DNA of 32,232 nucleotides, from the IMG/VR virus record IMGVR_UViG_3300037847_002675, positions 1-32,232 of that record, one strand, 5' to 3'. The stretch's first letter is position 1. Every line of letters begins with the position of its first letter. The position numbers were made by a program, and so were the translations under genes. The notes beneath the pieces were generated by a model that was not told the origin of the DNA, did not search any database, and saw only the letters and a program-made list of their open reading frames with translations. The stretch is from a virus. Positions 594-22,300 of the stretch are shown here, piece after piece.

Positions 594-622
594 GTTAGAA
601 TGATGAAGCGTAATTAATCATT

Positions 623-1381: not shown

Positions 1382-1387
1382 TGAACG

Positions 1388-2341: not shown

Positions 2342-2344
2342 ATA
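2337..2344 (+). promoter_or_regulatory. Late-promoter-like box AATAAATA over a stop codon
   Basis: AATAAATA differs from the T4 late core TATAAATA only in the first base. The TAA stop of the 217-aa gene is its third to fifth base. It lies 58 bases before the ATG of the 75-aa gene. This is the same arrangement as the two exact boxes at 2626 and 17753. Confidence 0.45.
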
Positions 2345-2368
2345 AATTTTAGGGATAGCAACCCCTTT

Positions 2369-2391
2369 AAAAGTTCTATTTTAGGACTTTT
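2369..2391 (+). promoter_or_regulatory. Hairpin upstream of a strong ribosome binding site
   Basis: AAAAGTTCT (2369-2377) can pair with AGGACTTTT (2383-2391) around the loop ATTTT, giving nine pairs, one of them a G-T wobble. The stem ends exactly at the ribosome binding site GGAGG (2392-2396). The T-run is inside the stem rather than after it, so this is a poor intrinsic terminator. It may modulate translation or mRNA processing of the 75-aa gene. Confidence 0.4.
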
Positions 2392-2396
2392 GGAGG
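2392..2396 (+). promoter_or_regulatory. Strong ribosome binding site GGAGG
   Basis: GGAGG stands 6 bases before the ATG at 2403 and fixes the start of the 75-aa gene. It is one of the strongest sites in the window; many of the structural genes have no clear one. Confidence 0.7.
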
Positions 2397-2402
2397 TTTC
2401 CA

Positions 2403-2630
2403 ATGGCTAATCATCCTGTTCCTGATCATGACAAAGAGTATATGAAAGAGCAACACGGTACAGAATACCTCATTACAGACCCCGCATCGGACAAAATTCT
2501 CCGAGAAGTGGTCGGTGATCATAAACATGACCTCAAAAGGCAGACTTTACTGCACGAAGAGATCAGAAATGATGATGATTATGATGATTGGGACTATGGC
2601 ACAGAGCCTAGTTACGGCAAGCCCCTATAA
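2403..2630 (+). CDS. Small acidic hypothetical protein (75 aa)
   Basis: A 75-residue hydrophilic protein beginning MANHPVPDHDKEYMKEQHGT, with a central helical stretch (SDKILREVVGDHKHDLKRQTLLHEEIRN cut by charged residues). It has a very acidic tyrosine/aspartate tail containing NDDDYDDWDYG. It has no hydrophobic core long enough for a large fold and no membrane segment. Its function is unknown. It has a strong ribosome binding site and its own possible promoter and hairpin, suggesting relatively independent control. The C-terminal codons CTA-TAA-ATA form the late promoter of the gp25 operon. It could be an assembly cofactor of the baseplate, from position only. Confidence 0.6.
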   Translation: MANHPVPDHDKEYMKEQHGTEYLITDPASDKILREVVGDHKHDLKRQTLLHEEIRNDDDYDDWDYGTEPSYGKPL

Positions 2631-2633
2631 ATA
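2626..2633 (+). promoter_or_regulatory. T4-type late promoter TATAAATA for gp25-gp6-gp7
   Basis: An exact match to the T4 late promoter core, which in T4 is read by host RNA polymerase carrying the phage sigma factor gp55. It lies 23 bases before the gp25 ATG. Bases 2628-2630 are also the TAA stop of the upstream gene. It would drive gp25, gp6 and the giant gene downstream, since no other good box lies between them. Confidence 0.8.
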
Positions 2634-2656
2634 ATCTCGATATATAGTGTCATTTC

Positions 2657-3055
2657 ATGCCTGAAACCAACTCACGGGCGTTTCAGGACATTAATTTGTC
2701 CTTCAAAGCACATCCTGTTACTGGAGATATTCAAGTTCTCAAGAATGAGAATGCGATAAAGCGTGCTGTAAGGAATTTGATTCAAACAATTGGAGGAGAG
2801 AGACCATTTCAGGACTCTCTTGGCACTGATGTAACAAGTTCGCTGTTCGATTTCGTCGATTTTGGTACAGCGAACTTAATTTCTCAGCAAATTTTTGATG
2901 TTTTGAGGAATTTTGAAGGTAGGATAGCAAATACTAAGGTGGTTGTCAACCCACAACCCGATGATAATGCGTTTGATATCTTAATTACCTATGATATTGT
3001 TGGTGATGATTTCCCTCGACAGACATTTGAGTTTGTTTTAGAACCAACTAGGTAA
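2657..3055 (+). CDS. 25: Baseplate wedge subunit gp25 (132 aa)
   Basis: A homologue of T4 gp25 and the GPW/gp25 family, a small wedge protein that contacts gp6 and gp53 and helps anchor the sheath at the baseplate. The family core is seen in NENAIKRAVRNLIQTIGGER followed by PFQDSLGTDVTSSLF (about residues 31-65). The C-terminus, FEFVLEPTR, matches the conserved EPR-type ending of the family with one inserted Thr. The length of 132 residues equals that of T4 gp25. There is no strong ribosome binding site despite the exact late promoter upstream; the ATG at 2657 is the first in frame. The gp6 gene follows after four bases. Confidence 0.92.
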   Translation: MPETNSRAFQDINLSFKAHPVTGDIQVLKNENAIKRAVRNLIQTIGGERPFQDSLGTDVTSSLFDFVDFGTANLISQQIFDVLRNFEGRIANTKVVVNPQPDDNAFDILITYDIVGDDFPRQTFEFVLEPTR

Positions 3056-3059
3056 AAAA

Positions 3060-4979
3060 ATGCCATCTTTCAAGTATACAAACCTAAATTTTGATCAAAT
3101 TAAGAGTTCGATCAAGGATTATTTGAGGTCTAACTCGGATTTTTCCGATTTTGACTTTGAAGGATCGAATATGTCGATCTTAATTGATGTTTTGGCGTAC
3201 AATACTTACTTGACGGCATTCAATAGCAACATGGTTGCTAACGAATCCTTCCTAGATTCGGCAACTTTAAGAGAAAATGTCGTTTCTCTTGCAAGAAATA
3301 TCGGATATGTCCCCAGATCGCGTAAAGCAGCACAAGCGATCGTCGATTTTCCGTTCAAATTCAATGGAAATAGCACAACTGTCACTCTGAAGAAGGGTTT
3401 GGTGGCAGTTGGTGGCGTAGAAAACACATCTTTTGTCTTTTCCATCCCCGAAGATGTCACTGTAACGAGTCCTATTGACGCTGGTGGCGTTGCTGGCGCA
3501 AATCCTCCGCGTACAGCAACTTTTTCTGGTCTTACTCTTTATCAAGGGACACTTTTAACCAAGTCTTGGGTTGTAAATGGCAATAGTGACCAAAGATTTT
3601 TGATTGAAAACTCAAATGTTGACATTGATACACTAAAAGTCGATGTTAGAAAGTCTGGAGCGTCTGCTGGATTGTCATTTTCTAAGGTTGACAACATTAT
3701 TGCAGTAACAGAGAAGTCAAATATCTTCTTAATCCAAGAAGCACCGAATGAAACCTACGAATTGCTATTTGGCGATGGTCTTTTTGGCACAAAACTAGAA
3801 GTTGGTGATACTGTTAATATTAGTTACATTGTAACTGACGGTAGATTTGGTAATGAAGGTAAGAATTTCGCATTTTCTGGCGATGTTCAAGATGATGCTA
3901 ATAATTCTATCGCATCAACGAATGTAGTTCAAATTACAACAACTCAAACTGCCCGTAATGGGTCCGATATTGAGTCAATTGACTCTATTCGATACTTTGC
4001 ACCTAGAATGTACTCCGCGCAGAACAGAGCGGTCACACCTAGGGACTACGAGGCGATTATTCAAGACATTTATCCCAACACAGAGTCGGTTTCCGTTGTA
4101 GGTGGAGAAGAACTCGACCCTCCAGAGTTTGGAACGGTCGTTTTGAGCATCAAACCTCAAAATGGCACATTTTTGTCTGACTTTACAAAGCAAAATATCA
4201 TTAACAAACTAAAAAGTTATACTATTGCAGGTATCAATCAAAGAATCGAAGATTTGAAGATTCTTTACATCGAACTTGATGCTAGTGTTTACTATAACAA
4301 CGCTGTTTTCGACAATGCGCCCGAATTGAAGGCAGAAGTAACACAATCATTGACCGAATACGGCAGATCTACTAATTTGAACAAATTTGGTGGTAGATTT
4401 AAATATTCTGAGGCACAAAATATTGTAGATAAGACTAATGAGTCTATTACATCCAATATTATGAAGGTTACAATGCGCCGTGACCTAAAATCTCTTGTAG
4501 ATCAGGTTGCACAGTATGAATTGTGCTTTGGTAACCAGTTCCACATCTTACCAGGTGGAGGAACTGTTAAATCTACTGGATTTAAGATTGCTGGTGATGA
4601 TGAAGTTGTATATCTTACTGATGTCCCTCGTGAAGATGGTAGATTTGGCGATATTGCTATTTTTAAACCAGCAAAATTAGAGGGAGACAGCGCAGAGGTT
4701 GTTATTAAGTCTGCAGGAACTGTAGATTACATGAAGGGTGAGATTTTGATCAACGCAGTCAAGATTACTGACACTGAAAAGGGTAATGGCATCATTGAGG
4801 TGCAAGCATACCCAGAATCTAATGATGTCATCGGTCTTAAGGACATTTACTTAAGCCTCGACCTGTCAAACTCCGAGATAAATATCGTGAGAGACACTAT
4901 TTCCTCTGGTCAGCAAATCTCTGGCATTGGATATCAAGTAACATCTAGCTACTCCAACGGATCGCTAATTAGACAGTAG
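3060..4979 (+). CDS. 6: Baseplate wedge subunit gp6 (639 aa)
   Basis: A homologue of T4 gp6, which forms the inner ring of the baseplate wedge and relates to the baseplate J-like family. The N-terminus shows the typical helical start: FDQIKSSIKDYLRSNSDF, then NMSILIDVLAYNTYLTAFNS and ANESFLDSATLRENVVSLA (about 12-82). The hallmark RAVTPRDYEAIIQDIYP is at about residues 323-339, preceded by FAPRMYSAQN. After about residue 480 the protein is beta-rich. Its length is close to T4 gp6 (660 residues). It starts four bases after the gp25 stop, and the giant gene starts one base after its own stop, so the three are almost certainly one transcript. Confidence 0.92.
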   Translation: MPSFKYTNLNFDQIKSSIKDYLRSNSDFSDFDFEGSNMSILIDVLAYNTYLTAFNSNMVANESFLDSATLRENVVSLARNIGYVPRSRKAAQAIVDFPFKFNGNSTTVTLKKGLVAVGGVENTSFVFSIPEDVTVTSPIDAGGVAGANPPRTATFSGLTLYQGTLLTKSWVVNGNSDQRFLIENSNVDIDTLKVDVRKSGASAGLSFSKVDNIIAVTEKSNIFLIQEAPNETYELLFGDGLFGTKLEVGDTVNISYIVTDGRFGNEGKNFAFSGDVQDDANNSIASTNVVQITTTQTARNGSDIESIDSIRYFAPRMYSAQNRAVTPRDYEAIIQDIYPNTESVSVVGGEELDPPEFGTVVLSIKPQNGTFLSDFTKQNIINKLKSYTIAGINQRIEDLKILYIELDASVYYNNAVFDNAPELKAEVTQSLTEYGRSTNLNKFGGRFKYSEAQNIVDKTNESITSNIMKVTMRRDLKSLVDQVAQYELCFGNQFHILPGGGTVKSTGFKIAGDDEVVYLTDVPREDGRFGDIAIFKPAKLEGDSAEVVIKSAGTVDYMKGEILINAVKITDTEKGNGIIEVQAYPESNDVIGLKDIYLSLDLSNSEINIVRDTISSGQQISGIGYQVTSSYSNGSLIRQ

Positions 4980-4980
4980 G

Positions 4981-7900
4981 ATGATCGAGACAAACTCCCC
5001 TTTAAGTCCACGGGTCAAAACTTATCAGGTTATTTCTGAGGTTGTACCCGAATTTGCTGTATCTGAGAACCCTGCGTTTGTTGAGTTCTTAAAACAGTAT
5101 TATATCTCGCAAGATTATCAAGGCGGTCCTGCTGATATCGCTGAAAATATCGATGCGTACATTAAAGTCGATAATCTGACCGTAGATGTAATTAGAGGGC
5201 AGACAACTCTTTCTTCAGACATTTCTGCAACTGATGATACGATCAATGTTGTAAGCACAGAGGGATATCCAGAAAAGCATGGTCTTATTAAGATCAATAG
5301 CGAGATTATCACCTATGCAGACAAAACTCAAACTTCTTTTTCTGGATGTACCAGGGGATTCAGTGGTATCTCCTCTTATACCGCTCCTAATGATCCTTCC
5401 TCTCTAGTTTGGGAACAAACAACTGCCGCAAGTCACTCTAGAAGTGATGTTGTGCAGAATGTTAGTGCTCTTTTCTTAAAAGAGTTTTATAAAAAATTAA
5501 AAGCGATGTATACTCCTGGATTGGAAGGAGTAAACCTCTCACCACAGTTAGATGTCAATAATTTCATCAAAGAAGCAAGAAGTTTATATGAAGCAAAGGG
5601 AACAGAAGATTCTTTCAAAATTCTGTTCAAAGCATTGTTTGGAATTACTCCAAAAATCAACGATCTTGAAAAATATCTGATTAAACCGTCATATGCAAAT
5701 TATGTTCGTAGAAAAACTCTTTCGGTAGAGTTGATTTCGGGAAATCCTTCAAATTTGGTCGGTGAAACCCTTTTTCAGGATAATGACCCTTTAAATGATA
5801 ATGTCAATGCTGCTTCTGGACCTATTTCGGAAGTTTCCAGCATTAGAGACAATTATTATAAAATTTCTCTGTTTACGGGTTTTGATGAAAGATCTCTTAC
5901 TGATGGAACCTTCGTAGTCCCTGGTAGAACGAGAAATGTTGGTCAAGTTGGACTTGGTGCGTCTGTTATTACAGTAGATTCTACGATTGGTTTCTCTAGC
6001 ACTGGTACGCTTAATATTGGCGACCCAAATGACTCTTATTATCAAACTTTAACATATACGACTAAAAGCATCAACCAATTCTTTGATGTAAATCCGTCAA
6101 TTGCAACATCTATCCCAAACAACACAAAAATCTCTGCACCCATCGTTGTTTATGGTTATGAGGGTGGAGATTCTACCAAAAAGGTAGAAATGAGAATTAC
6201 TGGGGTTTTAGATGAGTTTTTGACAAATCAAAAACTCCAAAATCTAGATTCAACCTCATCTATCAAGATTCGCAACCTTGGTCGTCTTATTTCTAATCCT
6301 CCAGAGAATAAGTCATATGATCAAATCTTTTATAACTCCTGGGTATACAATACTTCCGCAAGATATCTTGTAGACACCTTTGCTGGTTCTAGTTTTGTAT
6401 TGCTTGGCACTGTTGATAAAAGTTCTCTTAGAGAAGGTGATGACATTCAAATTGTTGGCAGAAATTCAGAGTTAGTATATGCTTCTGGATTGAAAGTTGC
6501 TTCTATCAATACTTCAACTAATACAATTACAATATCGGGATCAATCCCAACTTTGAACTCAAGTCTTAACTATGATATTAGAAGAGTTCAAAATAAAGCA
6601 AATTCTTCTATTGTTCCAATCAGAGGTGGTCAAGATCAACTTTTATCAGACATCAATAACACTTACATTGTAACTGAGAATGAATCTGATAGTGGAAAGA
6701 GAGAAGCATATGTTGCATCTAGTTCTCTCCCAAGTTATCTAATCTCTAGTGATAAAATCAGATCTACTCTGGTAAATCCTACTGCTGCTTTAGGAAACTT
6801 TGACAACTACAGCAGCGTAGAAGCTGCCTATTCTGTTGTTGCATTTACAAATGATGTTCCATTCAGAACTGGTGATGAAATTACATATGTTCCTAATGGA
6901 GAACCCATTGCTGGTTTGACTGCGGGAAATTATTTTGTAAAGGTTTTGAGTCCTGCTAACAGAATTGAACTTTATACTTCTAGAGCGTTCATCAAAGCAA
7001 ACTTACCGAATTATTTCAACCCACCGACAACTGCAGGAACTCATGACTTTATTTTGAGTTCTCAGGGAACAAGAAATATTTTCCCATCTAGACCAATTCG
7101 TAGATTTATTCTTGAGCAAGATCTTAAGAGTGGAAAAGAAGCACAAACCACATCAGAAAGAACTTCTGATGGTAACACTGGTATGTTGGTTAATGGTCTA
7201 GAGATCCTTAATTACAAGGGTGAAGACCAAGTATATTTCGGACCACTTCAAAAAATTAATATTTTAACTAGTGGGGATGACTTTGATGTAATGAATCCTC
7301 CCCAGATCATAATTAATGATCCATTGGTCAGTGCGGCAAATACCGCTGCAGCAGTACTGTCCGCAGAAGGAACTTTTAAAGATATCTATATTGACCCAGT
7401 TACATTCGATATTGATAAAGTTGTTAGTGTTGATATCTTTGGTGGTAACGGGTCTGGAGCGCGAGGTAGAGGTCTTACTGAGGAAAGATACAGAGAGATC
7501 TCATTCAGCGGCGTCAGCACCCTTACTGGTGGTGCTGTAGAAGCAGCAAACGATCTATTCTCATTTAATTCCAATCATAACCTGGTAACAGGAGATAGAA
7601 TTGTATATAACAACAATGGTAACGCTAATTTAGGAATTGCCACCACTGGTTCTTCTAAAGATGCTCTTACCCTGATGAGTGGGCAAGATTATTATATTGG
7701 AGTACAAGATCAAGATTCTGTTAGACTGCATTTTTCAAAACAAGACGCAGTTCTCGGTATCAACACTATTACCATTAGTGAAGACGCTGCAGCATTAAAC
7801 AGTGGTCTTCATATCTTCAGAACTTTTGAGAAGAAGACAGTTATTTCTAGAATTGTCTTAGAATCTCCTGGAGAAAGATATAGGTCCAGAAATCTTATTG

Positions 7901-10900
7901 TTAAACCAACTGGAATTAATACATTTAGAGATTATGTGTATTTTGAAGGTCATGGATTTGAAGATGGTGAAGTTGTAAATTACTCTTTTGATACTACTGG
8001 AGTTACTGGATTAAGTAGCACAAAACAGTATCAAATCTTAAAATTAGACGAAAATGCATTCCGTCTTGCAGAGGCAGGCAATAAAGGAGATGCTGCTGTA
8101 TCTGGAAATGATTATACAAACAGAGTTCATGCATTCTTAGATTCTACTGGTAGTGGATATCAGAGATTCTCTTATCCAGAAATTCAAGTTAAAGTTACTG
8201 TTCTCACAGAGGATCAGAAAGAACAAACTCTTACAGCAACGCCCGTTGTAAGAGGACAAATCACTGATGCCCTTTTATATGAATCTGGAGCAAACTACGG
8301 TTCCACCATCATTAATTTTGTCAATGCACCGACAATTTCTGTCCCTAGAGGAAAACTGGGTCAGATTGGTATCATTGTTTCCAATGGAAGAATTATTTCT
8401 GCTTTCATTCAAAATGGTGGTACTGGATACTCTGGTCCACCAGATATTGTTGTTGGTAGCGCAAACACAGAAGCATTTGGTGCCATCCTCAGAGCAGAGG
8501 TATCAAACGGTGCAATTAGTGCAGTTAAAGTAATTTCTGGTGGCGTTGGATACGCTCAGACAAATACCACCCTTAATATTCTTCCTGTTGGCACAAACAT
8601 CAGACTGCAAGCTGCTCTCAGACCTCTTGTAGTCAATAAGTCATTTGGTCTCGATGAGGATGAATTAGATTATCTCTCTCCTCTGGGTGATGGTGTCGCT
8701 GTTAACTACATTGGTTACGGTAACTCTATTAGAAATTTCTTTAATGACGATGGTTCTAGTCATTCTCCTATCATTGGATGGGCGTATGATGGAAATCCAA
8801 TTTATGGTCCATATGGTTTAGAAGACCCTGATAATATTCAATCTGATGTTCAACTTCAAACATCAAGTTATGCGATTAATTCTAGCAATATTGTCAATAG
8901 ACCCCCTACAGGAGAGTTCCCATTTGGATCTTTAGTAGAGGATTATGTTTACAATGGATCAGGGACTCTGGATGAGCATAATGGTAGATTTACAAAAACT
9001 CCAGATTTCCCCAATGGAATATATGCATATTTTGCAACTGTTGATATTTTAAACAAACCAGTATTCCCTTACTTTGTCGGAGATACTTACAGAAGTTCTT
9101 CTATCCCTGAAAATACTGTTAGAGGTCTTGTAATCGATCAGACTAACTTTAATTTTGAGAGGTCTAATCTTGTAAGAAATACTTTCCCGTATAATATTTT
9201 TGGTGACGGAAAAGCATATGAGTATGTTTTCCAACCTTATCTAACAAATAACCAAGAGTCTCTTCCAGATGTTCTCGGTATTGGTTCTATTACTGATATT
9301 ACAGTTAAGACCAGGGGCGAGGGTTATTCTGTAGGGGACAGTGTTGTCTTCGATGAGTCGGATACGAGTGGTGGTGGATTAAGCGCAGAGGTTCAGAAAA
9401 TTTATGGTAAAGATGTCAATAAGGTAACCAGCGAAACCACAAGATTCTTGGATGTTCCCTTCAAGGTCGTTAGAGAGGGTGTCAAGTTTAGAGTTGATCC
9501 TTTCCATGAATTCAAAGAAAACGAATTCGTTAAGGTAAGCGGGGCTTCTACTTATATTGAAGGTCTTCAAGGTTTCCATAAAATCTCCCTACCAACATAT
9601 TCAGGGAATCTGAATGATAACGGTTACACTGGTATCATTACAGATCTCAAAGTTACTGTTGTTCCACCTAATGTATCCGCTGGTGACTCTATTGGCATTG
9701 GCACGGAGACAATGCGTATTATCAACGCATTCCCTTCAGAAAAGATTGTAAGGGTTGAAAGATATGCTGGATTTGCCACAGCAGCAACTGGAGCTGCTGT
9801 AACTTACTTTACTAGCGAGTTTACAATCCCGCTTTCTGATTTAACTCCTGTTGATTCGGAGTTTCAGCAACTTTACTATTTTAACCCTAAAGAAGCAGTT
9901 GGTGTTGGCACTACTGTAGGTTTCTCTACATCAGTTAGCGTATCTCTCAATGGAGTAACCAAAACCAGATCAATTCTTTCCAAGTCTATCTACATTGGTC
10001 AACATGATCTGAAAAATAATGATATCATTACTTTCAACAAAAATGGAAATGCTGATCTGTTTGCTACACGATCAGTAGATCCATATGTCGCTCCTAGCGC
10101 CCTTACAGGCGATTTCTATGTGGTTAGAAAGACATCTACCACAATTGGTCTTAAGACGACTCCAGACACCGCAGAACTGTTCTTTACGAACACTGGTGAT
10201 GATAAGGCAAACTACTATTTTGAGACAAATTATAGTCAAGAGATAGCAGATATTGAAAAGAGTGATCTGACTGTAGAAACTGCAGTAGAACATAATTTGT
10301 CTAAAGGAGATCAGTTCTCCTTAGTGGTTCAACCTGGTCTTAGCACTGGTATCGGAACATCTACTTCTGCCAGAGTTCAACTGTTGGATGGTAATGTAAT
10401 TATCAATCCACTCCAACTCCCCACATCTGGTGTAAACACCACTACTAACACATTTACGATTGAAGATCATGCTTTAGAAACTGGATTCAAAATTTTAGCG
10501 TATGGTACTAATGGTGTTGGTTCTAGTCTGCCAAGTGGTCTTGAGCAAAGGAGTTATTTTGTTCTAAAGGTAGATAATGATAATTTCCAATTAGCAGATT
10601 CAAAAGTACAGTTATTCAAAGATCCTCCAGAGATTGTTAGCGTAGCATCGACTGGTTTTGTTGGACAAACTATCAATCCAATCAACCCCCCGATCAAGGT
10701 AACTAGAAACAATAATATTGTCTTTGATCTGAATCACACATCTTTATCTGGATCTGAGTTAAAGATTTTCTATGATAACAACTATTTTAATGAGTTTGTC
10801 GGTAGTGGAACTACAGCAAATCTCGAAGTAGTTGGTTTTGGGACAGTTGGTATTGGAACTACTCTTGCCTCTGCTACTCCGACTAAGACAATTAATTACA

Positions 10901-13900
10901 ATAAGTCTTTTAGCGGAGAATTGTATTATGGTATTGAAAAAGGTGGATATATGTCCACCTCAGACACAGAGGTTGTTGGATATAATAAAATCTCTTTTGT
11001 AAAGAGCAGATACACTGGATCCTACAAAGTTAGTGGAATTGGTTCAACTACATTTACTGCAACATTAACGACAGAACCAGAAAAGGCATCATACATCTCC
11101 ACCGATTGTGATGAGTTGTACTATACAACAACTTCGATTGGAGCAACGGGTGGTCTTGCGAAAATTAGAGTTATTAACAATGGTATTGGATATGATGCAT
11201 TCCCAGCGGTAACATCCATTGGAAATAGTGGTATTAGCGGAGAATTGATTCTTTCTGGTGATGATGTAAACTTACTGGAAAGTCTTACCGTACCAACTGA
11301 TGTTTACGGATATCCATCTGATAATACTTTGAAACCAGATGCGTTCCTTCCCAGAGTTGTCAGGATTAAGAATGCAAATAAAGTTATTGAGGCAGAAGTA
11401 ACATTTGGTGGTAAGTCGTATCTGAATGCTCCTTCTCTGTCACTGTTTGATAAATCTACTGGAGAAATTATTCAGAATGGTCTTATTACTTGTGATTTGA
11501 GTGATTCTGCGGTAAACACAGTAAAAGTTGTAGTTGAACCAAGAGGACTCACTGGTAATGATTATGGACTTGCTCCACTGAGAAACAGCAATGGTATTTC
11601 TATTATCGAAGCATTCTCCGATGTAGGTTTCCTTACCTGTAAGATTACAACACCTATTTTGGGATATGTTGACGAACCATTTACAACTGGAGAGTCGGTA
11701 TTTGTTGAGGGTATTGAATTCAATGGTGATGGTACTGGATTTAATGGTGGAGATTATAAGTTCGTAAACTTCACTATTGCAGATTACAATACTGCGGTCA
11801 ACCCCAGAGAAGTAACTTTTGCATATGCTGGTCTTACTAATAACACAGGAACTGGTGCAACTGTAACTCCTGGATTCGGTCAGATTGTCAAGGCAGGCAA
11901 TCTTGCACAATTTGCGGTGACTAAGAAGTTCTCCGACTTTGCTAGGAACGAACCTCTTAGAAGAAACAATGATCTTGAAACAGATCTCATTTTAAGATCT
12001 ATTAATACCAGCACAGGTATTATGGTTATTGAAGGGTCTAGACCCCTAGAACCAGATGATCTTCTTGTAGGTACAAACAGCGGTGACCGCTGCGAAGTTG
12101 ATATTGTCAGAGAATTTGACGGATATTTTGATATCAATTCAAACATTGAAACTAACATTGGTTGGTCTGACAATATTGGTCTTATCGGTGATAACAATCA
12201 ATACCTACCAGATAATGATTATTATCAAAACATGTCTTATGCCATTGAGAGCGATAAGACATATGAAGAACTGATTAACTATGTGAACGATATTGTTCAC
12301 CCTGCTGGAATGAAAAACTTCGCCAATACACAGATCTTGTCTGTTGGTGATGCTGGTGAGAGCACTCAACCTGCAGACGATGCTGGTGGATTTGTTCTTG
12401 ATTTTGTTAGCGATCCGTTAAGGGTTGATGCGATTTATGGATTTGACCTTTCTAGAGATGTTAACTCTTCTGACAATGTTTCAAAATTCTTAGAACTTCA
12501 GTCAACTAGACTTGCTGACTACATTCTCAATAAAACAAATAGAGTTCTTCAGCATGATGATATCAGTCCCAAATTCGTTAGTAATGAATCTAATGATTTG
12601 AGTGATGATAGAACTATCGCTGCCGCTGTTGGTGGTAGAAACTTTGCGAGATATCTGATCCAGACTACACATGATGCTGAGAATCCTCTCAATAACCAAT
12701 ATCAGCAAAATGAGGTCATTCTTGTCACAGTAAATGAAAATACTTATTTACTACAAAAGTCCCACCTCAACAATACCAACAATGTTGGTTTAGCAACTGG
12801 TTATGCAGAATTCTTCTCATTCTTTAATCAACAGGACAATATAACTGAAGTAAGAATCAAACCTTACGAGACATTTGATACTGACTATGACATTAAAGCA
12901 TTCCAGCAAGGATTTGCGTCTGATGTTGGCATCGGATCTACAAACCTTGGCAATACTGTCAACTCCTCCTTCAATGTCACCGTAGGTTCAGGTACTACTA
13001 CGGAAGTATGTGGTTTTAGCACAACAACCTTCGTTGGAGGTATCGGTCATTTTGTTGTTGTAGATACTGCTGATAACAAGATTGATTATGTTGAGTTAGC
13101 GCTACAACATGATGGAGTAGATACTTATTTGACAGAACTAGCATCGTTTAACACTAGACAGTCTGTTGGTGGTATTTCTGGTCCCACATTTATGGGAACA
13201 TTTACATCTGCCATTGAAAGCGGTGTAATTAAAATCAATTATATCCATGACGAACCAATCCCCCTCTCAATTAGATCTAAGTTTGTATCGTTTGAGAATG
13301 TTGGACTTGGCACTACTAGCGTAAAACATCTGAACCTTGAATTTACTCCAGAAGGAACAGAGAGAACTGCTAGAGTAGTTGTCGGTGCTTCTGCTACTAC
13401 AGGTATTTCTACCATTGTTGGAGTCACTACAAATATTGATCTTTCCTTCAAGACAACTGCACATGTGTCTATTGGTGAGACTCAAACGATCCACCAAATC
13501 TATGTTTTAAGTGATCCTGAGAAAGCAGATACTTACTTTACTCAAGGACCTATTGCTGCGGTTGGAACAACTACAGGCGTAGGTACATTTGGTGCTGAGT
13601 ATAGAGGAAATCAAGTTGTTCTTGAATTCTTCCCTGATGCTAGTGTATCTGGCATGGTAAGTATCTTCTCTTACAATGAAATTCTTTACAAAGATCTTGA
13701 TTCTAACGGCACTCTGGCAGGTATTGGTTCATTTGACTATGGAAGAGTATTTGAGAATGTAACTCAAAACACATATCTCGGTATCAACAATAGAAATATC
13801 AGAACCTTTGATCTTACTTACCAAGGAACTCCAATTTATGAGAGAAATCTCAACCCACAAAACCCCAACCAAATCAACTTTGGTGATGGTTTAATCAGTT

Positions 13901-16900
13901 TCAAACACTTCTTCTCTAACGCTGAAGAAGTTACTTATACACCAGGTTCTAACATTGTTGGTGTTGCTGCAAGTGCTCTGCAATATGTTACTGGATATGG
14001 TCACACATCTCTACCTGGCACTGTATACATCATTAAAAATAACAATAACCAATTCTACATCTCTACCACTCTTACAGATGCTAGACAAGGTATTGCCGTA
14101 ACATTCCAACCTGGAACCTCTGCTGGCAACCAGCATAGATTCACAATGAACAAGAGAGATGAGAAAACAATCATTTCTCTCAGTGGCATTGTTCAAAAAC
14201 CGATTTCCTTTACAAGTATCATCTATGATCTTGATGTAGCAGTCAATGGTATTGTTACAGCATTTGCTCTTAGTGGTCTTAGCACCGTTACATCTGGTGA
14301 TTTGCTCAAGATTGAGGATGAATATTCTATTGTCAAAACTGTTGGTTTTGCAACTCAACCATCTGGTCCTATTACAGGCATTGGTACTTGGAGTATTGTA
14401 GAGGTCGAACGGGGTGCAGTTGGATCTGCAGCAACTAGTCACGCTGCAGGCGAAGTAGCAAGAATCCATAGAGGATCTTTCCAGATTCTGAACAGTCAGG
14501 TTCACTTTACTGAAGCACCTCTTGGTGGTGACTTAGGTATCATTGACCCAAGTAACTTGCCGTATCCTAGAGCATCCTTTGGTGGTAGAACATATCTGAG
14601 GAATGATTATGCAACAAACGAACTGTTTGATGACTTCTCTGATAAATTTGATGGTCTTGAAAATACTTTTGACTTGACTGCTACTGGTGCTGCTGTAACT
14701 GGTATTGGTTCTACTGGCGGTAATGGTGTTCTGTTCATCAACGGTATCTTCCAAGCACCATTTGGTGAAAACAACGAAGGCGTTTCTAACTTCAAGATTC
14801 TTGAGGATCCTGTTTCTACTGCTGCCAGTGTTCAGTTTACGGGTATCACCTCAGTTGGATTTACGGATCTAATTATTGATGAGGATGATATTAACCAAAA
14901 CCAGTTACCAAGAGGCGGCATCATTGTCTCTGCTGCTTCTACTCCTGGTAGAGGATATGCTCCATTCAATGGTGCATCAGTCAAAGTCAATGTAAACACT
15001 GCAGGAACAATCACTGAGATTGTTGGTGTATCTACTACAGGTATCTTTGTTAACATTGAAGATGCCGCTTATGATAATAAGACTGGCATTATGACAGTCA
15101 CAACTACTGGTAACCATACTCTTGTACTTGAAGATCAAGTCAAGTTAGTTGGTCTTGAGTTTACCTGTCCTAAGAATCCTGTGGGAACACCCAATGGATT
15201 TACTTATGACCCTTCTACTGGTATCTCTACCATTTCATTCGCAACACCTCACGGACTTGTAAATGGTGATGCAATTTCTATCGAAGCGAACAGCATTACA
15301 TTTACATGTACACAGGGTCCTGGCAATCATACCTATCCTCGTGTAACTGATCCTGCATACAACCAGTATCTTACCATTTCTGGTGTAACTGCAAATTCAT
15401 TTAAAGTTAATGTTGGAACTGGTGGTACAGGTACATCTCCACACACTTTTGTTAGTGCTGCTACGGATGCTATCAGAACTCTGAACTATCAGGGTATTAC
15501 CACTACAACATTCCCAGATCACGATGATCCGTTCTCTGTTGTTGGTATTACATCTGCAAGAACATTCAAGGTACAGGTCGGTGCATCTACTATTCCACAC
15601 ACTTATGTAAGTGGCGGTACTGCTGCTCAGTTCTTCCCACTGACATTTGGTTCTGGATACAATACCAATCTTGGAACGATTGGTATCGCTATCACTGATG
15701 TTGCATTTGAGCACAGATTTGCATCTGCTGGTATCAATTCTATCTTTGACAACACTGGTACAACATATACTGCAACTGGCGGTAGTTACATCTCCACTAG
15801 CGGTCAGCTGACCTTAACTATCAATGGTCATGGTCTTACTACCAGCAACACTCTTGGTATTGATACTGGATCTATCGGATTCACTTGTGATAGTGACAAC
15901 TTCTTGAGTGTCAATCTTTATCCTAGAGCAACTGATCCTGTTGCTGGTATTCTTACTGCTATCACTGAGGTGACTACAAATACAGTAACAGTATTTGTTG
16001 GTCCTGGTGGTGGTGCTGGAACTGGTGCAGATGTCTCTGCAGTTGTTGGTGCTGGCGGTAGTCTTGTCTTTACCATCAACGATGGTGGTGTTGGTTATGT
16101 AAATGCACACGCAAATCCACCAGAACCAAATGGAGAAAATCTTCCTATTGTAGGCGTATCCAGAATCGGTCTGGGTAATACAACCGTTACTGGCGTTGGT
16201 TGCTCAGTATCCGTTCAAATTGCTGGTGTCTCTACGGCAACAGGTATTGGATCCACTTACTTTGAGGTTTCTGACTTTGAATTCTCTAAGAAGGGTTATG
16301 GATTTAAGCGTGGTGATAAGTTCACTGTAACTGGTCTCTCTACAGATCCTTCTGCTGGAGATGACTTCCAACAGTTTGAACTTGAGGTTATTGATGTATT
16401 CACTGATCAGGTATCTTCCTGGCAGTTTGGTAACATTGATTACCTTGATAACATCAAGAGATTCCAAAATGGAAACCAGAAGAGATTTATTCTTGAGTAT
16501 CAAAGATCTATTGTCAGTTTCGAGATTGACAGAAATGATCAAGACTCTAAAGAAATTGATCTTGGTTCAGTTCTCTTGATATTCATCAATGGTGTTATTC
16601 AAGAACCTGGAGTTCACTATACATTTGATGGTGGTTCCGTAATTGAATTTACAACTGCTCCTACTAGAGAAGACAATGTTGTTATCTTCTTCTACAGAGG
16701 AACCATTGGACAGGATAGTTTCCTGTTCGATGTTAACGAGGTCATCAAAGTTGGTGATACTGTCAAACTGGAGAAGAGTACTGAAGTAGAACTTAATAGA
16801 GTAGATAAAAACGCCGCTAACTTTGCTCAGAGTGAAGATAGAATTGTTAAGAGAATTGACAGTGCTGCTACTGTTGAGACTGCATTCTATCAAGGTGTTG

Positions 16901-17757
16901 GTATTAGTAATGACAATTACAAACCACTTAACTGGATCAAGCAGAAGAAAGACATTCTGATTGATGGTTCTCTTGTATCCAAAGCAAGAGATTCTATTGA
17001 AGCACAGATCAATCCAGTGGCAAATGTAATTGGTGTTGTAAGTACAACTGATGCATTCTTATATGTTGATTCCACAGCATTGTTTACTGATACTGATGGA
17101 TTGTTATCTGCCACATTTGGTCTTGCTTATGTTGCTGAAGTTGGATTTGGAACAACCGCAGTTTATGGTGTTAACTATGAAAACATCGGTGGTATTGAAC
17201 CGTTGGTTGCAAATGTCCAAGGTTTCATTGGAGTTGTTACTGGTATCAGCACGGTTCCTGGAATTGGTACGGATCTTGCAATCCAAATTCAGTTTGATGT
17301 TCAAGAGTATGTTAACAATGGCAATGATCCCACTGGGTTACAAACTGGACAACCATTCAGACTTTATGGGTCTGGAATCAACACTGCTGGTGTTGCTTTG
17401 ACCAGTATTGATACTCACGACACCGATATTGTTGCAATCAGTACATATAACGGCGACAACATTTATTATACCCATGGTATTTCTTTCGTACCTGGAACTG
17501 GAAGTCGTCTTGGTATTATCACCACAAACATTGCTTCTTATACTGATGTAAGTGATTTTGTTGGCGTCGGTTCTACCGCTGGTCCTAATTGCCACTTCAC
17601 ATGGGGTAAGTTTAGCGGTCTCACTAGAGACGGTTCAAACCCCGTATATGCCAATCTTAAGGGTCTTAATTTTGACCCACAATTGAGCAACTATCCTATT
17701 GTTCAAAGGCGTGGAGTTGGTTTAAGAGGCACTGGGGGTCTACCGAAGCTGTTATAA
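4981..17757 (+). CDS. 7: Giant gp7-position baseplate wedge protein with YHYH domain (4258 aa)
   Basis: By position between gp6 and gp8 this replaces T4 gp7 (1032 residues), which links the wedge proteins; it is about four times longer. The first 265 residues look like the core: PEFAVSENPAFVEFLKQYY (about 23-41) and a helical part with EARSLYEAKGTEDSFKILFK (about 198-217). A YHYH domain spans about 1235-1370, with IGWAYDGNPIYGPYG at 1265-1279 and DEHNGRF at 1331-1337. IVHPAGM lies near 2438. The rest is a mosaic of beta-rich modules: at least nine G-G-x-G-Y turns, many GIGTT/GVGST pentapeptides, two IxxE...RG...H modules (about 74-140 and 3107-3165), a triplicated FTC/YPR/HTF module (about 3388-3700), and FINGVIQEP near 3869. 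It has no membrane segment or frameshift. The start lies one base after the gp6 stop. The gp7 assignment is by synteny; the wedge role is well supported, and the functions of the modules are unknown. Confidence 0.8.
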   Translation: MIETNSPLSPRVKTYQVISEVVPEFAVSENPAFVEFLKQYYISQDYQGGPADIAENIDAYIKVDNLTVDVIRGQTTLSSDISATDDTINVVSTEGYPEKHGLIKINSEIITYADKTQTSFSGCTRGFSGISSYTAPNDPSSLVWEQTTAASHSRSDVVQNVSALFLKEFYKKLKAMYTPGLEGVNLSPQLDVNNFIKEARSLYEAKGTEDSFKILFKALFGITPKINDLEKYLIKPSYANYVRRKTLSVELISGNPSNLVGETLFQDNDPLNDNVNAASGPISEVSSIRDNYYKISLFTGFDERSLTDGTFVVPGRTRNVGQVGLGASVITVDSTIGFSSTGTLNIGDPNDSYYQTLTYTTKSINQFFDVNPSIATSIPNNTKISAPIVVYGYEGGDSTKKVEMRITGVLDEFLTNQKLQNLDSTSSIKIRNLGRLISNPPENKSYDQIFYNSWVYNTSARYLVDTFAGSSFVLLGTVDKSSLREGDDIQIVGRNSELVYASGLKVASINTSTNTITISGSIPTLNSSLNYDIRRVQNKANSSIVPIRGGQDQLLSDINNTYIVTENESDSGKREAYVASSSLPSYLISSDKIRSTLVNPTAALGNFDNYSSVEAAYSVVAFTNDVPFRTGDEITYVPNGEPIAGLTAGNYFVKVLSPANRIELYTSRAFIKANLPNYFNPPTTAGTHDFILSSQGTRNIFPSRPIRRFILEQDLKSGKEAQTTSERTSDGNTGMLVNGLEILNYKGEDQVYFGPLQKINILTSGDDFDVMNPPQIIINDPLVSAANTAAAVLSAEGTFKDIYIDPVTFDIDKVVSVDIFGGNGSGARGRGLTEERYREISFSGVSTLTGGAVEAANDLFSFNSNHNLVTGDRIVYNNNGNANLGIATTGSSKDALTLMSGQDYYIGVQDQDSVRLHFSKQDAVLGINTITISEDAAALNSGLHIFRTFEKKTVISRIVLESPGERYRSRNLIVKPTGINTFRDYVYFEGHGFEDGEVVNYSFDTTGVTGLSSTKQYQILKLDENAFRLAEAGNKGDAAVSGNDYTNRVHAFLDSTGSGYQRFSYPEIQVKVTVLTEDQKEQTLTATPVVRGQITDALLYESGANYGSTIINFVNAPTISVPRGKLGQIGIIVSNGRIISAFIQNGGTGYSGPPDIVVGSANTEAFGAILRAEVSNGAISAVKVISGGVGYAQTNTTLNILPVGTNIRLQAALRPLVVNKSFGLDEDELDYLSPLGDGVAVNYIGYGNSIRNFFNDDGSSHSPIIGWAYDGNPIYGPYGLEDPDNIQSDVQLQTSSYAINSSNIVNRPPTGEFPFGSLVEDYVYNGSGTLDEHNGRFTKTPDFPNGIYAYFATVDILNKPVFPYFVGDTYRSSSIPENTVRGLVIDQTNFNFERSNLVRNTFPYNIFGDGKAYEYVFQPYLTNNQESLPDVLGIGSITDITVKTRGEGYSVGDSVVFDESDTSGGGLSAEVQKIYGKDVNKVTSETTRFLDVPFKVVREGVKFRVDPFHEFKENEFVKVSGASTYIEGLQGFHKISLPTYSGNLNDNGYTGIITDLKVTVVPPNVSAGDSIGIGTETMRIINAFPSEKIVRVERYAGFATAATGAAVTYFTSEFTIPLSDLTPVDSEFQQLYYFNPKEAVGVGTTVGFSTSVSVSLNGVTKTRSILSKSIYIGQHDLKNNDIITFNKNGNADLFATRSVDPYVAPSALTGDFYVVRKTSTTIGLKTTPDTAELFFTNTGDDKANYYFETNYSQEIADIEKSDLTVETAVEHNLSKGDQFSLVVQPGLSTGIGTSTSARVQLLDGNVIINPLQLPTSGVNTTTNTFTIEDHALETGFKILAYGTNGVGSSLPSGLEQRSYFVLKVDNDNFQLADSKVQLFKDPPEIVSVASTGFVGQTINPINPPIKVTRNNNIVFDLNHTSLSGSELKIFYDNNYFNEFVGSGTTANLEVVGFGTVGIGTTLASATPTKTINYNKSFSGELYYGIEKGGYMSTSDTEVVGYNKISFVKSRYTGSYKVSGIGSTTFTATLTTEPEKASYISTDCDELYYTTTSIGATGGLAKIRVINNGIGYDAFPAVTSIGNSGISGELILSGDDVNLLESLTVPTDVYGYPSDNTLKPDAFLPRVVRIKNANKVIEAEVTFGGKSYLNAPSLSLFDKSTGEIIQNGLITCDLSDSAVNTVKVVVEPRGLTGNDYGLAPLRNSNGISIIEAFSDVGFLTCKITTPILGYVDEPFTTGESVFVEGIEFNGDGTGFNGGDYKFVNFTIADYNTAVNPREVTFAYAGLTNNTGTGATVTPGFGQIVKAGNLAQFAVTKKFSDFARNEPLRRNNDLETDLILRSINTSTGIMVIEGSRPLEPDDLLVGTNSGDRCEVDIVREFDGYFDINSNIETNIGWSDNIGLIGDNNQYLPDNDYYQNMSYAIESDKTYEELINYVNDIVHPAGMKNFANTQILSVGDAGESTQPADDAGGFVLDFVSDPLRVDAIYGFDLSRDVNSSDNVSKFLELQSTRLADYILNKTNRVLQHDDISPKFVSNESNDLSDDRTIAAAVGGRNFARYLIQTTHDAENPLNNQYQQNEVILVTVNENTYLLQKSHLNNTNNVGLATGYAEFFSFFNQQDNITEVRIKPYETFDTDYDIKAFQQGFASDVGIGSTNLGNTVNSSFNVTVGSGTTTEVCGFSTTTFVGGIGHFVVVDTADNKIDYVELALQHDGVDTYLTELASFNTRQSVGGISGPTFMGTFTSAIESGVIKINYIHDEPIPLSIRSKFVSFENVGLGTTSVKHLNLEFTPEGTERTARVVVGASATTGISTIVGVTTNIDLSFKTTAHVSIGETQTIHQIYVLSDPEKADTYFTQGPIAAVGTTTGVGTFGAEYRGNQVVLEFFPDASVSGMVSIFSYNEILYKDLDSNGTLAGIGSFDYGRVFENVTQNTYLGINNRNIRTFDLTYQGTPIYERNLNPQNPNQINFGDGLISFKHFFSNAEEVTYTPGSNIVGVAASALQYVTGYGHTSLPGTVYIIKNNNNQFYISTTLTDARQGIAVTFQPGTSAGNQHRFTMNKRDEKTIISLSGIVQKPISFTSIIYDLDVAVNGIVTAFALSGLSTVTSGDLLKIEDEYSIVKTVGFATQPSGPITGIGTWSIVEVERGAVGSAATSHAAGEVARIHRGSFQILNSQVHFTEAPLGGDLGIIDPSNLPYPRASFGGRTYLRNDYATNELFDDFSDKFDGLENTFDLTATGAAVTGIGSTGGNGVLFINGIFQAPFGENNEGVSNFKILEDPVSTAASVQFTGITSVGFTDLIIDEDDINQNQLPRGGIIVSAASTPGRGYAPFNGASVKVNVNTAGTITEIVGVSTTGIFVNIEDAAYDNKTGIMTVTTTGNHTLVLEDQVKLVGLEFTCPKNPVGTPNGFTYDPSTGISTISFATPHGLVNGDAISIEANSITFTCTQGPGNHTYPRVTDPAYNQYLTISGVTANSFKVNVGTGGTGTSPHTFVSAATDAIRTLNYQGITTTTFPDHDDPFSVVGITSARTFKVQVGASTIPHTYVSGGTAAQFFPLTFGSGYNTNLGTIGIAITDVAFEHRFASAGINSIFDNTGTTYTATGGSYISTSGQLTLTINGHGLTTSNTLGIDTGSIGFTCDSDNFLSVNLYPRATDPVAGILTAITEVTTNTVTVFVGPGGGAGTGADVSAVVGAGGSLVFTINDGGVGYVNAHANPPEPNGENLPIVGVSRIGLGNTTVTGVGCSVSVQIAGVSTATGIGSTYFEVSDFEFSKKGYGFKRGDKFTVTGLSTDPSAGDDFQQFELEVIDVFTDQVSSWQFGNIDYLDNIKRFQNGNQKRFILEYQRSIVSFEIDRNDQDSKEIDLGSVLLIFINGVIQEPGVHYTFDGGSVIEFTTAPTREDNVVIFFYRGTIGQDSFLFDVNEVIKVGDTVKLEKSTEVELNRVDKNAANFAQSEDRIVKRIDSAATVETAFYQGVGISNDNYKPLNWIKQKKDILIDGSLVSKARDSIEAQINPVANVIGVVSTTDAFLYVDSTALFTDTDGLLSATFGLAYVAEVGFGTTAVYGVNYENIGGIEPLVANVQGFIGVVTGISTVPGIGTDLAIQIQFDVQEYVNNGNDPTGLQTGQPFRLYGSGINTAGVALTSIDTHDTDIVAISTYNGDNIYYTHGISFVPGTGSRLGIITTNIASYTDVSDFVGVGSTAGPNCHFTWGKFSGLTRDGSNPVYANLKGLNFDPQLSNYPIVQRRGVGLRGTGGLPKLL
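15145..16074 (+). repeat. Coding repeats: three related FTC / YPR-xDP / HTF modules in the giant protein
   Basis: Copy 1 (about 15277-15465) reads SITFTCTQGPGNHTYPRVTD, then KVNVGTGG and PHTFVSA. Copy 2 (about 15505-15630) keeps FPDHDDPFSVVGI, FKVQVGA and PHTYVSGG. Copy 3 (about 15832-16035) keeps SIGFTCDSDN, YPRATDP and TVFVGPGG. An extra FTC stands at about 15165. The modules are diverged at DNA level, so duplication was not recent. They probably form similar beta domains in series. Confidence 0.6.
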
Positions 17758-17793: not shown

Positions 17794-19368
17794 ATGGCAG
17801 CCATTATCACCGACCAATTTAGGGTTATTAATGCAAATAATTTTGTAGACTCTGTAATTGACGGTACTAATTCTTATTTTACTTTTTTAAGTCTCGCCAA
17901 TCCAACCATTACTGGTTATGGAAGGACGAGTACATGGAATAGTACCACGGTTCAACCACCGTCCCCGATTGACAACATCAGTTATGTCAATCATGTTTAT
18001 GATACGATGCTTTTCGGGCGGAAAGTGTTGCCTGGTGATGTTAGGAGACTGATCCGCAAAGTACAGTGGACAAAAGGTACATCATATGACATGTATCGTC
18101 ATGACTATGATACAAATAATAGATCTCTAGTTTCTAACTCTAGTAGATTGTATTCATCCAACTACTATGTGATGAATAAGGACTTTAGAGTCTATATTTG
18201 TATTGACAATGGATCAGCAGGTATTACATCTACCGCTAATGCATCTCTCGATGAACCAACATTTACTGATTTGGAACCATCCGCTGCTGGGACGAGTGGT
18301 GACGGCTATCTATGGAAATACCTCTTTACTGTTCCTCCCGCAGATATCGTCAAATTCGACTCAACCGAATATGTAGCTGTACCTAACTCGTGGACATCTT
18401 CTACAGAAAATGAAATTAAAGTCGTTAGGGATAATGGGGACTCAACAGTAAACAATAATCAAATCAAGGTTGTTTCTATTGACGAACAGGGTGAAGGTTA
18501 TTCTTTCCTTTCCAATCCTGTAGAACTTGATATCCTTGGTGATGGTACGGGTGGTAAAGTACGGGTACAGACAAATACGAACGGACAGATTATTTCTGCA
18601 ACTGTAACTGCTGGCGGTCAAGGTTATAGTTTTGGTAGAGTTGATCTTTCTTCCATCAATGCTGCTGCTACTAAGTTTGCGAGATTGACTCCAATCATTC
18701 CTCCCTCCAGAGGACATGGTTTTGACTTATATAAAGAACTAGGAACTGATAAGGTCTTGATTTATTCTAGATTTGATAGTTCTTCATATGACTTCATCTC
18801 AGATACGACATTTGCTCAAATTGGTGTTCTCAAAAACCCAATTGCAGCAGGTGCTGGATCTACTGCTGTATTGAATACATCAGAATATTCTTCTACTAAG
18901 TCAATTAAGTTTACTGGTAATACTACACAATCTCTAGCAATTGGTGCAGAGATTAAGCAAGATATTACTGGTATTGGCACGGCAAAGGGATATGTCGCAT
19001 CTTATGACATTAGCACTAGAGTGATTAAATACTTCCAAGACAGAAATCTCTATTTGAACCCCGTCTTTTACGATGCGACAGATAGTCTTGGTGTGGGGGG
19101 AGATGCCAAAGTGCTTGAATTTAGTTCTTCTGGCAATGCTGTAACTGGTCCTAGTGGTTTTAGTGTAAACATCGATTCTGGTTTTTCTGGTATCTCAACC
19201 ACTACGCCTGCAGGTAAAGTTGTGGATCTTGGCGTACAATTCACTAATGGTCTTGCTGGTGCAGAAATAAATAAAAGGACTGGTGAGATTATCTACCTTG
19301 ATAATAGACCTTCTATTACCAGGAATGAGCGTCAAAAAGAAGACATCAAAATCGTTTTAGAATTCTAA
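17794..19368 (+). CDS. 8: Baseplate wedge subunit gp8 (524 aa)
   Basis: A homologue of T4 gp8 (334 residues), the wedge protein that dimerises and binds gp7 and gp10. The N-terminus reads ITDQFRVINANNFVDSVI. Family landmarks are VYICIDNGSAGITST (about 132-146), SGDGYLWKYLFTVPPADIVKF (about 169-188), RGHGFDLYKELG (about 307-318) and FAQIGVLKNP (about 341-350). Between 220 and 300 it carries two G-x-GYSF turns (EQGEGYSF, AGGQGYSF) of the type repeated in neighbouring proteins, plus extra C-terminal sequence, which helps explain the added 190 residues. The leader between promoter and ATG is pyrimidine-rich with no visible ribosome binding site, unusual for a major structural gene. Confidence 0.85.
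   Translation: MAAIITDQFRVINANNFVDSVIDGTNSYFTFLSLANPTITGYGRTSTWNSTTVQPPSPIDNISYVNHVYDTMLFGRKVLPGDVRRLIRKVQWTKGTSYDMYRHDYDTNNRSLVSNSSRLYSSNYYVMNKDFRVYICIDNGSAGITSTANASLDEPTFTDLEPSAAGTSGDGYLWKYLFTVPPADIVKFDSTEYVAVPNSWTSSTENEIKVVRDNGDSTVNNNQIKVVSIDEQGEGYSFLSNPVELDILGDGTGGKVRVQTNTNGQIISATVTAGGQGYSFGRVDLSSINAAATKFARLTPIIPPSRGHGFDLYKELGTDKVLIYSRFDSSSYDFISDTTFAQIGVLKNPIAAGAGSTAVLNTSEYSSTKSIKFTGNTTQSLAIGAEIKQDITGIGTAKGYVASYDISTRVIKYFQDRNLYLNPVFYDATDSLGVGGDAKVLEFSSSGNAVTGPSGFSVNIDSGFSGISTTTPAGKVVDLGVQFTNGLAGAEINKRTGEIIYLDNRPSITRNERQKEDIKIVLEF
19266..19273 (+). promoter_or_regulatory. Weak internal late-promoter-like box AATAAATA
   Basis: AATAAATA within the end of gp8, 100 bases before the start of the DUF4815 gene, differs from the late core in one base. 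It lies in coding sequence (the codons for EINKR), so chance is likely; it could supply extra transcripts of the next gene. Confidence 0.2.
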
Positions 19369-19372: not shown

Positions 19373-22300
19373 ATGCCACAACAGACTAACCTAAATGTCA
19401 GCCCTTATTACGACGATTTTGATTCGGATAAGGGATATCATCGCGTCCTGTTCAAACCAGGATTTCCCGTACAGGCTAGAGAACTTTCTACCTTACAGTC
19501 TATCCTGCAAAATCAGGTAGAGACATTTGGTAGTCATATCTTCAAAGAAGGATCTATTGTTATTCCTGGATCCATCACATTTGATGGTCAGTATTATGCT
19601 GTCCAAGTCAATCCCACTCACTTAGGTGTAGATATTGGCGTATATGCTGATAAGGTAATTGGTAAAACAATTAAGGGTCAAACAACTGAGGTAACTGCAA
19701 AGGTTATCAATTTTATCAGCGCATCAGAGTCTGATAACGATTTTGACACATTTTTTGTAAAATATATTAACTCCTCCACAACTGGAGATTTTAATTTCTT
19801 TGACCCCTCAGAAATTCTTGTTACTGAGGAGTCATTTACATATGGCGGTACAACTATTAATGCTGGCGGCACTTTTGCTTCTACTATTGATTTAGATCCA
19901 TGTAGTATTGGTTCTGCTGCTTCCGTTGATGAAGGCATTTATTTTATCAGAGGTAACTTTGTAAGGGTCCTCAAGCAAACAATTATCCTTGATCAATACA
20001 ACTCACAACCATCTTTTAGAGTTGGTCTTAGAGTTCTTGAGAGTACAATCTCAGCAAAAGCAGACAACAGTCTCTATGATAACGCAAAAGGTTTTAGTAA
20101 TTTTGCTGCTCCTGGCGCTGACAGACTTCAAATCTCTCTGGTTCTTGATAAGAAACCTGTAGAAGATTTTGATGACACGGACTTCGTAGAAGTCATGCGT
20201 GTTGATAATGGTGAAGTCCTTTCTATCAAGAGAGAAACAGAATATTCTAAAATTAGAGATTATCTTGCAAAAAGAACTTTTGATGAGTCTGGAGATTATA
20301 CCGTCAATAAGTTCCTTGTAAATGTAACTGAGTGTTTGAACGACAGACAAGGAAACAACGGAGAGTATTTTTCCGATCAAATAACCTTTGATGGCAACGA
20401 ACCTAACGATGATCTTGCATGTCTGAAGATCAGCGCAGGTAAGGCATATATTCATGGATATGATATTACTACTGATGGTCCTACCACATTAGATTTTATC
20501 AAACCCAGAGAAACTCAAGAAGTAAAAGATAAGTCATTCCCATTCCAGATGGGAAATAAGTTTGTTGTTAATAATGTATCGGGTATTACCACCCTTACAG
20601 ATAGTATCGATCTGTTTGGCGGACCTCATGTCAATGGCACAGGTTTAGCAGCTGGTACATCAAATCAGATTGGAAATGCAAAGGTATATAACTTTGGTCT
20701 GAAAGATACTAAGTATGAGGATGCTTCTACTGAGTTTGATCTCTATTTGTATGACATCCAAACATATACAGACCTCAAACTAAATGATAATGTAAGTTCT
20801 ACTGAAGTTATCAAATCTGCATTTATTGTAGGTAAAGAGAGTGGTGCTAACGGATTTACTGTATCTGCTGGTGCAGGTTCTAGTACTATCCAAATTACTC
20901 AGGTATCAGGTAACTTCCGTCCTGGCGAGAAAATTCTCATTAATGGTGTCGAAGAAATCTCAAGATCCGTTGAGTCTGTAAAGGCTTATGGTATTAATGA
21001 TGTATTCTCCTTCGCACAAAGTGGCAACAGCTTTACTGCAAACAAAAAAATTAATGACAGAATTCCTCCTAGATTAGGAACTGGTGAGGTAACTATTGAC
21101 TTGAGCGGTTCTACTGCTACGGTAACTGCTCCTAGAATCGATAGTTTCCAGAGATTCAAACCTGGTGACATTATTAGATATACTGACAACAAGAGCGGAA
21201 CACAGACTCAGTTCCAAAATGTTGTATTGACTATTGCTGCTGATTTGCAGTCAATGACCGTTGGTACTATGACAACGGTATCAAACTTGTATGATGGTCG
21301 TGTTGCTGATTTTACAGGTCCTATTACGATTGCAGCACAGGACACATCTACAGAGAATGCATCTCTGATTACAATCCTTCCAGATCTCAATGTATCTAAT
21401 GTTGATTTTACTGGATCTACATTGTTCCTTACTGCACAGGTAACCAATGAGTCAACAAATGCTTTGGGTCAATTAGTTGTTCCCATTTCTTCTGTTGATC
21501 TTGATGATGTCTCCTTCGCAGCATTTGATGAGGAAAGATATCAAGTTCAATATTCTAATGGCACGATTGGTGTAATTGAAGACAACCAAGTAACAGTATC
21601 TCCTACTCAATTGACCATCACTGGTCTCAATGCCTCTCAAACAGGCATGAAGGTGAATGTTACAGTAATCAAGTCGAACATCAAAAATAAAGTAAAAGAA
21701 TATAAGCGTTGTCAACAACTCTCCGTTACTAGATCAACAAACAAGTCTTCTGGTACTGACCCAGCGACCAGCGTCGGTGATGGTCTCACACATAGCGAAC
21801 TGTATGGTCTGAGAGTTCAAGATAGAGATATCTCTCTCAATGAGCCAGACGCAATTGATGTTGTTGCTATCTATGAGTCTTTAGATACTAATGCTCCTAT
21901 TTTAGATAAACTCACATTCACATCTACTGATGATGTGTTTACCAGTGCAATCATTGGTGAGAATATCTTTGGATCGACTAGTAAAGCAATTGCAAAAGTT
22001 GTATCTATTGATGTAGGTAATAGTCAAATTGAAGTAGTTTATTTAACTAATGATAGATTTGCTATCTTAGAAGCTCTTACATTTGAAGAGTCTAATACAA
22101 CTGCTGTTCTTCAAGGAGCAACACCTGGAAAATATAGAGACATTACTAGCAGTTATTTGTTAGATAAGGGTCAGAGAGATCAGTATTATGATTACTCTAG
22201 AATTGTAAGAAATAGAGGATCATATATTCCTCATAGACAACTTCTGATTATCTACAACAGATACGATATTCCCAGTGGAGATACTGGAGATGTCTTTACT

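Follow-up and report, generated by a model that had tools for sequence, protein, structure and literature searches.

The 32,232 bases of the IMG/VR record IMGVR_UViG_3300037847_002675, analysed here over their whole length (the window), carry the baseplate operon of a marine, T4-like cyanophage, in which a giant reading frame very probably encodes the baseplate wedge protein gp7. The giant form of gp7 was known before; what is new is the domain layout, in which two core segments are followed by a separable C-terminal extension, and a single variable array of modules, to which nearly all the length variation among the relatives is confined. Judging only by the relatives of the virus, we infer that its host is a cyanobacterium.

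The giant frame in the baseplate operon

The giant ORF lies between gp6 and gp8, which gives the 6-7-8 gene order found in T4, and the synteny gp25-6-7-8 is kept around it:

2657-3055: gp25, operon member upstream of gp6
3060-4979: gp6 (PHROG 219)
4981-17757, + strand: giant gp7 (PHROG 2885), 4258 aa, ATG start, one frame, 39.6% of the window
17794-19368: gp8 (PF09215/PHROG 438)
19373-26704: VrlC/DUF4815 protein, after gp8
from 27639: long ORF of which the window holds only the start

The preliminary description of this DNA had placed in the gp7 position a 12.8-kb single frame, about four times the length of T4 gp7 and taking up 40% of the window, and these claims agree with the ORF at 4981-17757, its ratio to T4 gp7 (4258 against 1032 aa, or 4.1 times) and its measured share. 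The 'baseplate wedge subunit' profile PHROG 2885 matches residues 10-4038 of the protein with its positions 8-3889 of 4179 (2961 bits, E = 0). Elsewhere in the window, the ORF at 1688-2341 matches PHROG 3704, 'ferredoxin' (E 3e-110), and none of the Pfam families; this label may be an annotation error.

Two core segments of gp7

A direct BLAST of the giant protein against T4 gp7 found zero similarity, and a PDB search with the whole chain returned only a chance match (2kyy, E 0.52), such that profiles were needed. The arrangement of the protein is as follows:

4981-5670, + strand: gp7 core, N-terminal part, residues 1-230, with a KGT segment around residue 206
5671-12126, + strand: insert between the core pieces, residues 231-2382, about 2150 aa
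8749-9045, + strand: YHYH-type domain (PF14240) within the insert, residues 1257-1355
12127-12450, + strand: gp7 core, closing segment, residues 2383-2490, with YYQ...SY...HPAG
12451-17754, + strand: separable C-terminal extension, residues 2491-4258, 1768 aa
15067-16023, + strand: array of 84-aa modules, residues 3363-3681, with full copies at 3408-3490 and 3602-3681 and partial ones at 3363-3407 and 3499-3542
16024-17754, + strand: conserved tip region after the array, residues 3682-4258

Two profiles, both built from cyanophage sequences only, one from an alignment of residues 1-260 in 23 sequences and the other from residues 2383-2490 aligned from 10 cyanophages, were searched against 177,635 PDB sequences. 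Each had T4 gp7 as its first-ranking match, the N-terminal core at T4 residues 731-759 (E = 8.4e-5) and the closing segment at 863-908 (E = 0.024, weak on its own). Compared by hhalign with 13 T4-type gp7 sequences, the N-terminal core gave E = 6.7e-8 and the closing segment E = 4.9e-5, and the order of the two segments is the same as in T4 gp7. Because these two weak-to-moderate matches agree in rank, order and synteny, we consider it safe to call the giant ORF gp7, an assignment made from sequence comparison and held with high confidence; what had been described as a position is thus upgraded to homology by two separate core segments. T4 gp7 (1032 aa, PDB 5IV5) shares with the window protein the KGT and HPxG segments, in order, and the place between gp6 and gp8. 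However, its N-terminal part of ~640 aa has no counterpart in the window protein, the distance between the core segments is ~100 residues in T4 and ~2150 here, and the long C-terminal extension is a feature of the window protein that T4 gp7 does not share.

It has been stated that T4 gp7 is absent in such phages (PMC7029224), so that VrlC (19373-26704) would replace it and the giant ORF would be some other structural protein, and the lack of direct BLAST similarity between the giant protein and T4 gp7 agrees with that statement. Nevertheless, both core segments of T4 gp7 are found in the giant ORF in their proper order, the gene order is 6-7-8, and VrlC is located after gp8 and carries DUF4815; on these grounds VrlC was rejected as a gp7 substitute, a reading that we disfavour as very improbable.

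Core residues 67-156 (5179-5448) look like a small beta insert. About the same stretch bears a weak resemblance to residues 2031-2094 of VrlC (window ~25460-25660; E 4e-4), and weak matches in the VrlC-sized frames of five relatives agree with this; therefore, the module may be common to both baseplate proteins. In VrlC itself, residues 1584-1626 (window 24122-24250) comprise a run of nine prolines and then the arginine-rich RRRRRRRTRRR, directly before DPLAQT. Downstream of VrlC in P-HM1 (GU071101), a second gene at 70324-77601 is annotated, by annotation only, as 'gp7 baseplate wedge initiator', and locus L362 presents the same situation.

Giant gp7 proteins among cyanophages

The first 465 residues match 464 phage records, nearly all of them from cyanophages. 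In isolates, the protein in the gp7 position has 1454 aa in S-CRM01, 1942 in S-H34, 3048 in S-PM2, 4225 in ACG-2014f, 4314 in S-CAM7, 4446 in P-HM1, 5195 in P-SSM2 and 7124 in P-SSM7, and the full-length IMG/VR relatives range from 3956 to 5456 aa, so that 4258 aa is ordinary for the group. As giant gp7 proteins are already in the databases (PHROG 2885), the size alone is nothing new. In all 24 of these full-length relatives, some of which are near-identical to each other, the gene is one open frame with zero internal stops, and against a relative of 98.7% identity there are 153 synonymous and 51 non-synonymous codon differences across the giant ORF. A chance frame, or an assembly or sequencing artefact fusing several genes, for which nothing but the unusual length speaks, is thus refuted by the unbroken relatives, by the isolates P-SSM2, P-HM1 and P-SSM7, and by the synonymous excess.

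The giant gp7 proteins of P-SSM2, ACG-2014f, P-HM1 and S-CAM7 ('baseplate wedge initiator', PHROG 2885) share the gene position and are colinear with the window protein over thousands of residues, that of P-SSM2 with 36% identity over ~3900 aa. The marine cyanomyoviruses of PHROG 2885 have in common with the window protein the core segments, the YHYH domain and the C-terminal region, whereas the copy number and sequence of the array differ, as does the length (4258 against 4225-5195 aa). In the P-SSM7 protein (NC_015290, 54052-75426), which contains 12 modules, the KGT segment is not reached until residue 695; this is a still larger form with added N-terminal sequence, to be compared with locus L132 from 16180. 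In six other loci (L064-L067, L076 and L079), ~120 extra residues are found within the N-terminal match of 250 residues.

One module array accounts for most of the length variation

The repeated unit has 84 aa and the motif FTC...HTYPR.tDP. Comparison of the window protein with itself revealed one strong repeat, 3408-3506 against 3602-3704 (E 3e-11), the other internal matches being weak (E about 1e-3 to 6e-5). Scored at 20 bits or more, there are 3 modules in the window protein, 0-14 in the metagenomic relatives and 15 in gp7b of S-SSM7. When 25 proteins were aligned, the array region extended from 55 to 1522 aa and correlated with the total length at r = 0.98, whereas the segments outside it had length standard deviations of about 1-16 aa with a single exception, a value of 545 in L129 that is probably spill of the array in the alignment. 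Nearly all length variation among the relatives is, then, that of one module array. The preliminary description had seen in the extra length a mosaic of repeated beta modules; one array of repeats is indeed there, but most of the chain is non-repetitive and of near-fixed length, and models of low to moderate confidence support a beta content for parts of the chain only.

The array also changes between very similar proteins. L325 and L123 are 98% identical, and L325 carries two extra units; the array regions measure 1304 and 1522 aa in one pair of 98% identity, and 341 and 247 aa in a second pair of ~94% identity. Units within one protein are mostly ~33% identical and pair in order with the units of close relatives, between which the shared units keep their order and extra blocks appear. 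With respect to the window protein, L319 has 97.8% identity in the array and 84.6% in the rest, while L122 has ~55% in the array between flanks of ~80%. These patterns fit an exchange of array blocks between lineages, as far as can be read from the sequences. Slippage of DNA tandem repeats was rejected as the source of array change, given that we found no long DNA tandem repeats in the window and that the units are mostly ~33% identical. A hypervariable array under positive selection was likewise unsupported: non-synonymous differences from the closest relative, the one of 98.7% identity, are zero in the module array.

The insert and its YHYH-type domain

The length of the insert is nearly constant in relatives down to ~39% identity. 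Within it, residues 1257-1355 match positions 88-183 of the 193 in PF14240 (E 5.6e-24; 85.6 bits against a gathering cut-off of 25), and the domain was found in the insert of eight of the nine cyanophages tested, though not in S-CRM01 or T4. The YHYH domain of the preliminary description is therefore present, in a truncated and degenerate form without the YHYH signature: the first half, with the YHYH motif, is absent, and the sequence at the second motif is YAYF, as it is in the large majority of the related phage copies, whereas several cellular members of PF14240 retain one or two copies of YHYH. Zinc binding has been proposed for this motif and the histidines, and the domain has been proposed to be a zinc hydrolase (PMC7824862). 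Such an activity appears unlikely for the window domain and, as the signature is lacking, the domain is unfit as evidence for enzymatic contact with the host.

The C-terminal extension

The extension is a separable part of gp7, as the gene arrangements of other cyanophages show. The gp7 proteins of S-H34 and S-CRM01 are without it and end just after the closing segment, and S-SSM7 carries two genes where the window has one, gp7a matching residues 11-2553 and, after a 340-aa ORF, gp7b matching 3130-4030. Given this separate gene, the extension may act elsewhere on the virion. It is likely to be a peripheral appendage. Its tip region contains a fibre-like INGV/DUF4183-like stretch (a weak match, below cut-off).

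That the chain is made as one and then cut, with the extension acting as a separate fibre-like protein, would be in line with gp7b of S-SSM7 as a separate gene for much of the extension. Neither a cleavage site nor a link to a protease was found, and all 24 full-length relatives, as well as several isolates, encode the extension in one frame with the core, which makes cleavage improbable.

Discussion

Taken as a whole, the best explanation of these data is a cyanophage gp7 orthologue with its core in the wedge and its extra length serving as an adhesion arm, which we give an even chance of being right. The core segments (1-230 and 2383-2490) would link a pair of gp6 molecules within every baseplate wedge, as T4 gp7 does, and from this core the insert of ~2150 residues and the extension of 1768 would stand out in one or two beta-rich projections, with six copies on the virion. 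The array would set the reach of the conserved C-terminal tip, or the number of binding units displayed, and the phages would alter it by gaining, losing and exchanging blocks of modules, of which the variation in length is observed. The most likely use would be adhesion, with the arm making contact with the surface of the cyanobacterium and relaying the signal through the wedge to the sheath. The 'arm' or 'projection' shape of the extra length is something that we infer; the AlphaFold2 models were poor, with a mean pLDDT of 47 for residues 1080-1520 and 36 for residues 3240-4258. A bolder version, with the wedge protein as a length-tunable adhesion arm that unites in one polypeptide the wedge core, the route by which the signal reaches the sheath and the modules in contact with the host, the modules being added, lost or swapped at one fixed site, is tentative, possible rather than probable.

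The array links gp7 to fibre-like proteins. Among the phage records searched, the 84-aa module occurs in 369, all of them from cyanophages or marine viruses, and the proteins that bear it are annotated as structural, tail or tail fibre. These genomes also encode it outside gp7, for instance in SSSM7_113 of S-SSM7 ('phage tail fiber-like protein') and PHM1_097 of P-HM1 ('YapH protein'). Other indications come from S-CREM2, S-PM2 and XM1 and concern gp7 homologues, not the extension or the array. In S-CREM2, a shorter protein in the gp7 position (1937 aa) is reported in virions with 91 unique peptides and 27.2% coverage (PMC10665884). A chemostat co-culture study describes an early non-synonymous change in the giant gp7 homologue of S-PM2d (S-PM2d081) grown with its host, in an experiment in which many other genes changed (PMC9910659). 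The deposited gp7 sequences of S-PM2 and S-PM2d show no difference from which to locate the selected mutation, and as our module search found the array absent from S-PM2 gp7, the mutation says nothing on the array. In XM1, spikes attach to the T4 gp7 orthologue gp17 (242 aa) at a loop and at the C-terminus (PMC10457771), and by this published description gp17 resembles the window protein in carrying appendages at these two sites, although it docks separate spike proteins, unlike the single chain of the window gp7.

Appendages on the wedge protein, an idea of the preliminary description, are plausible in view of the separable extension, the variable array shared with fibre proteins and the spike sites of XM1, even though most of the chain does not consist of repeats. 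Direct contact of giant gp7 with the host, based on the shared modules and the one selected mutation in a homologue, is a possibility that we place close to, or just short of, an even chance. The extra length could instead be structural only: it would enlarge the baseplate into a layered one, serve as a dock for fibres and a brace for the wedges, and at no point come into contact with the host. The insert, near-constant in length down to ~39% identity, is what a packed part is expected to be, XM1 gp17 holds separate spikes at the same two kinds of site, and we identified no receptor-binding domain in giant gp7; but an array that varies in length, is apparently exchanged and is common to fibre-like proteins fits poorly in a tightly packed plate, and we regard this structural role as conceivable, if rather doubtful.

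Whether it works as an adhesion arm or as a brace, giant gp7 ranks with the largest proteins in the virions of ocean viruses that are very abundant. The papers found give no description of its layout, and one of them calls gp7 missing (PMC7029224). With a known core and one variable site, it offers a defined target for cryo-EM and host-range studies, and direct contact between wedge and host becomes testable with naturally occurring pairs of phages whose main difference is the length of the array.
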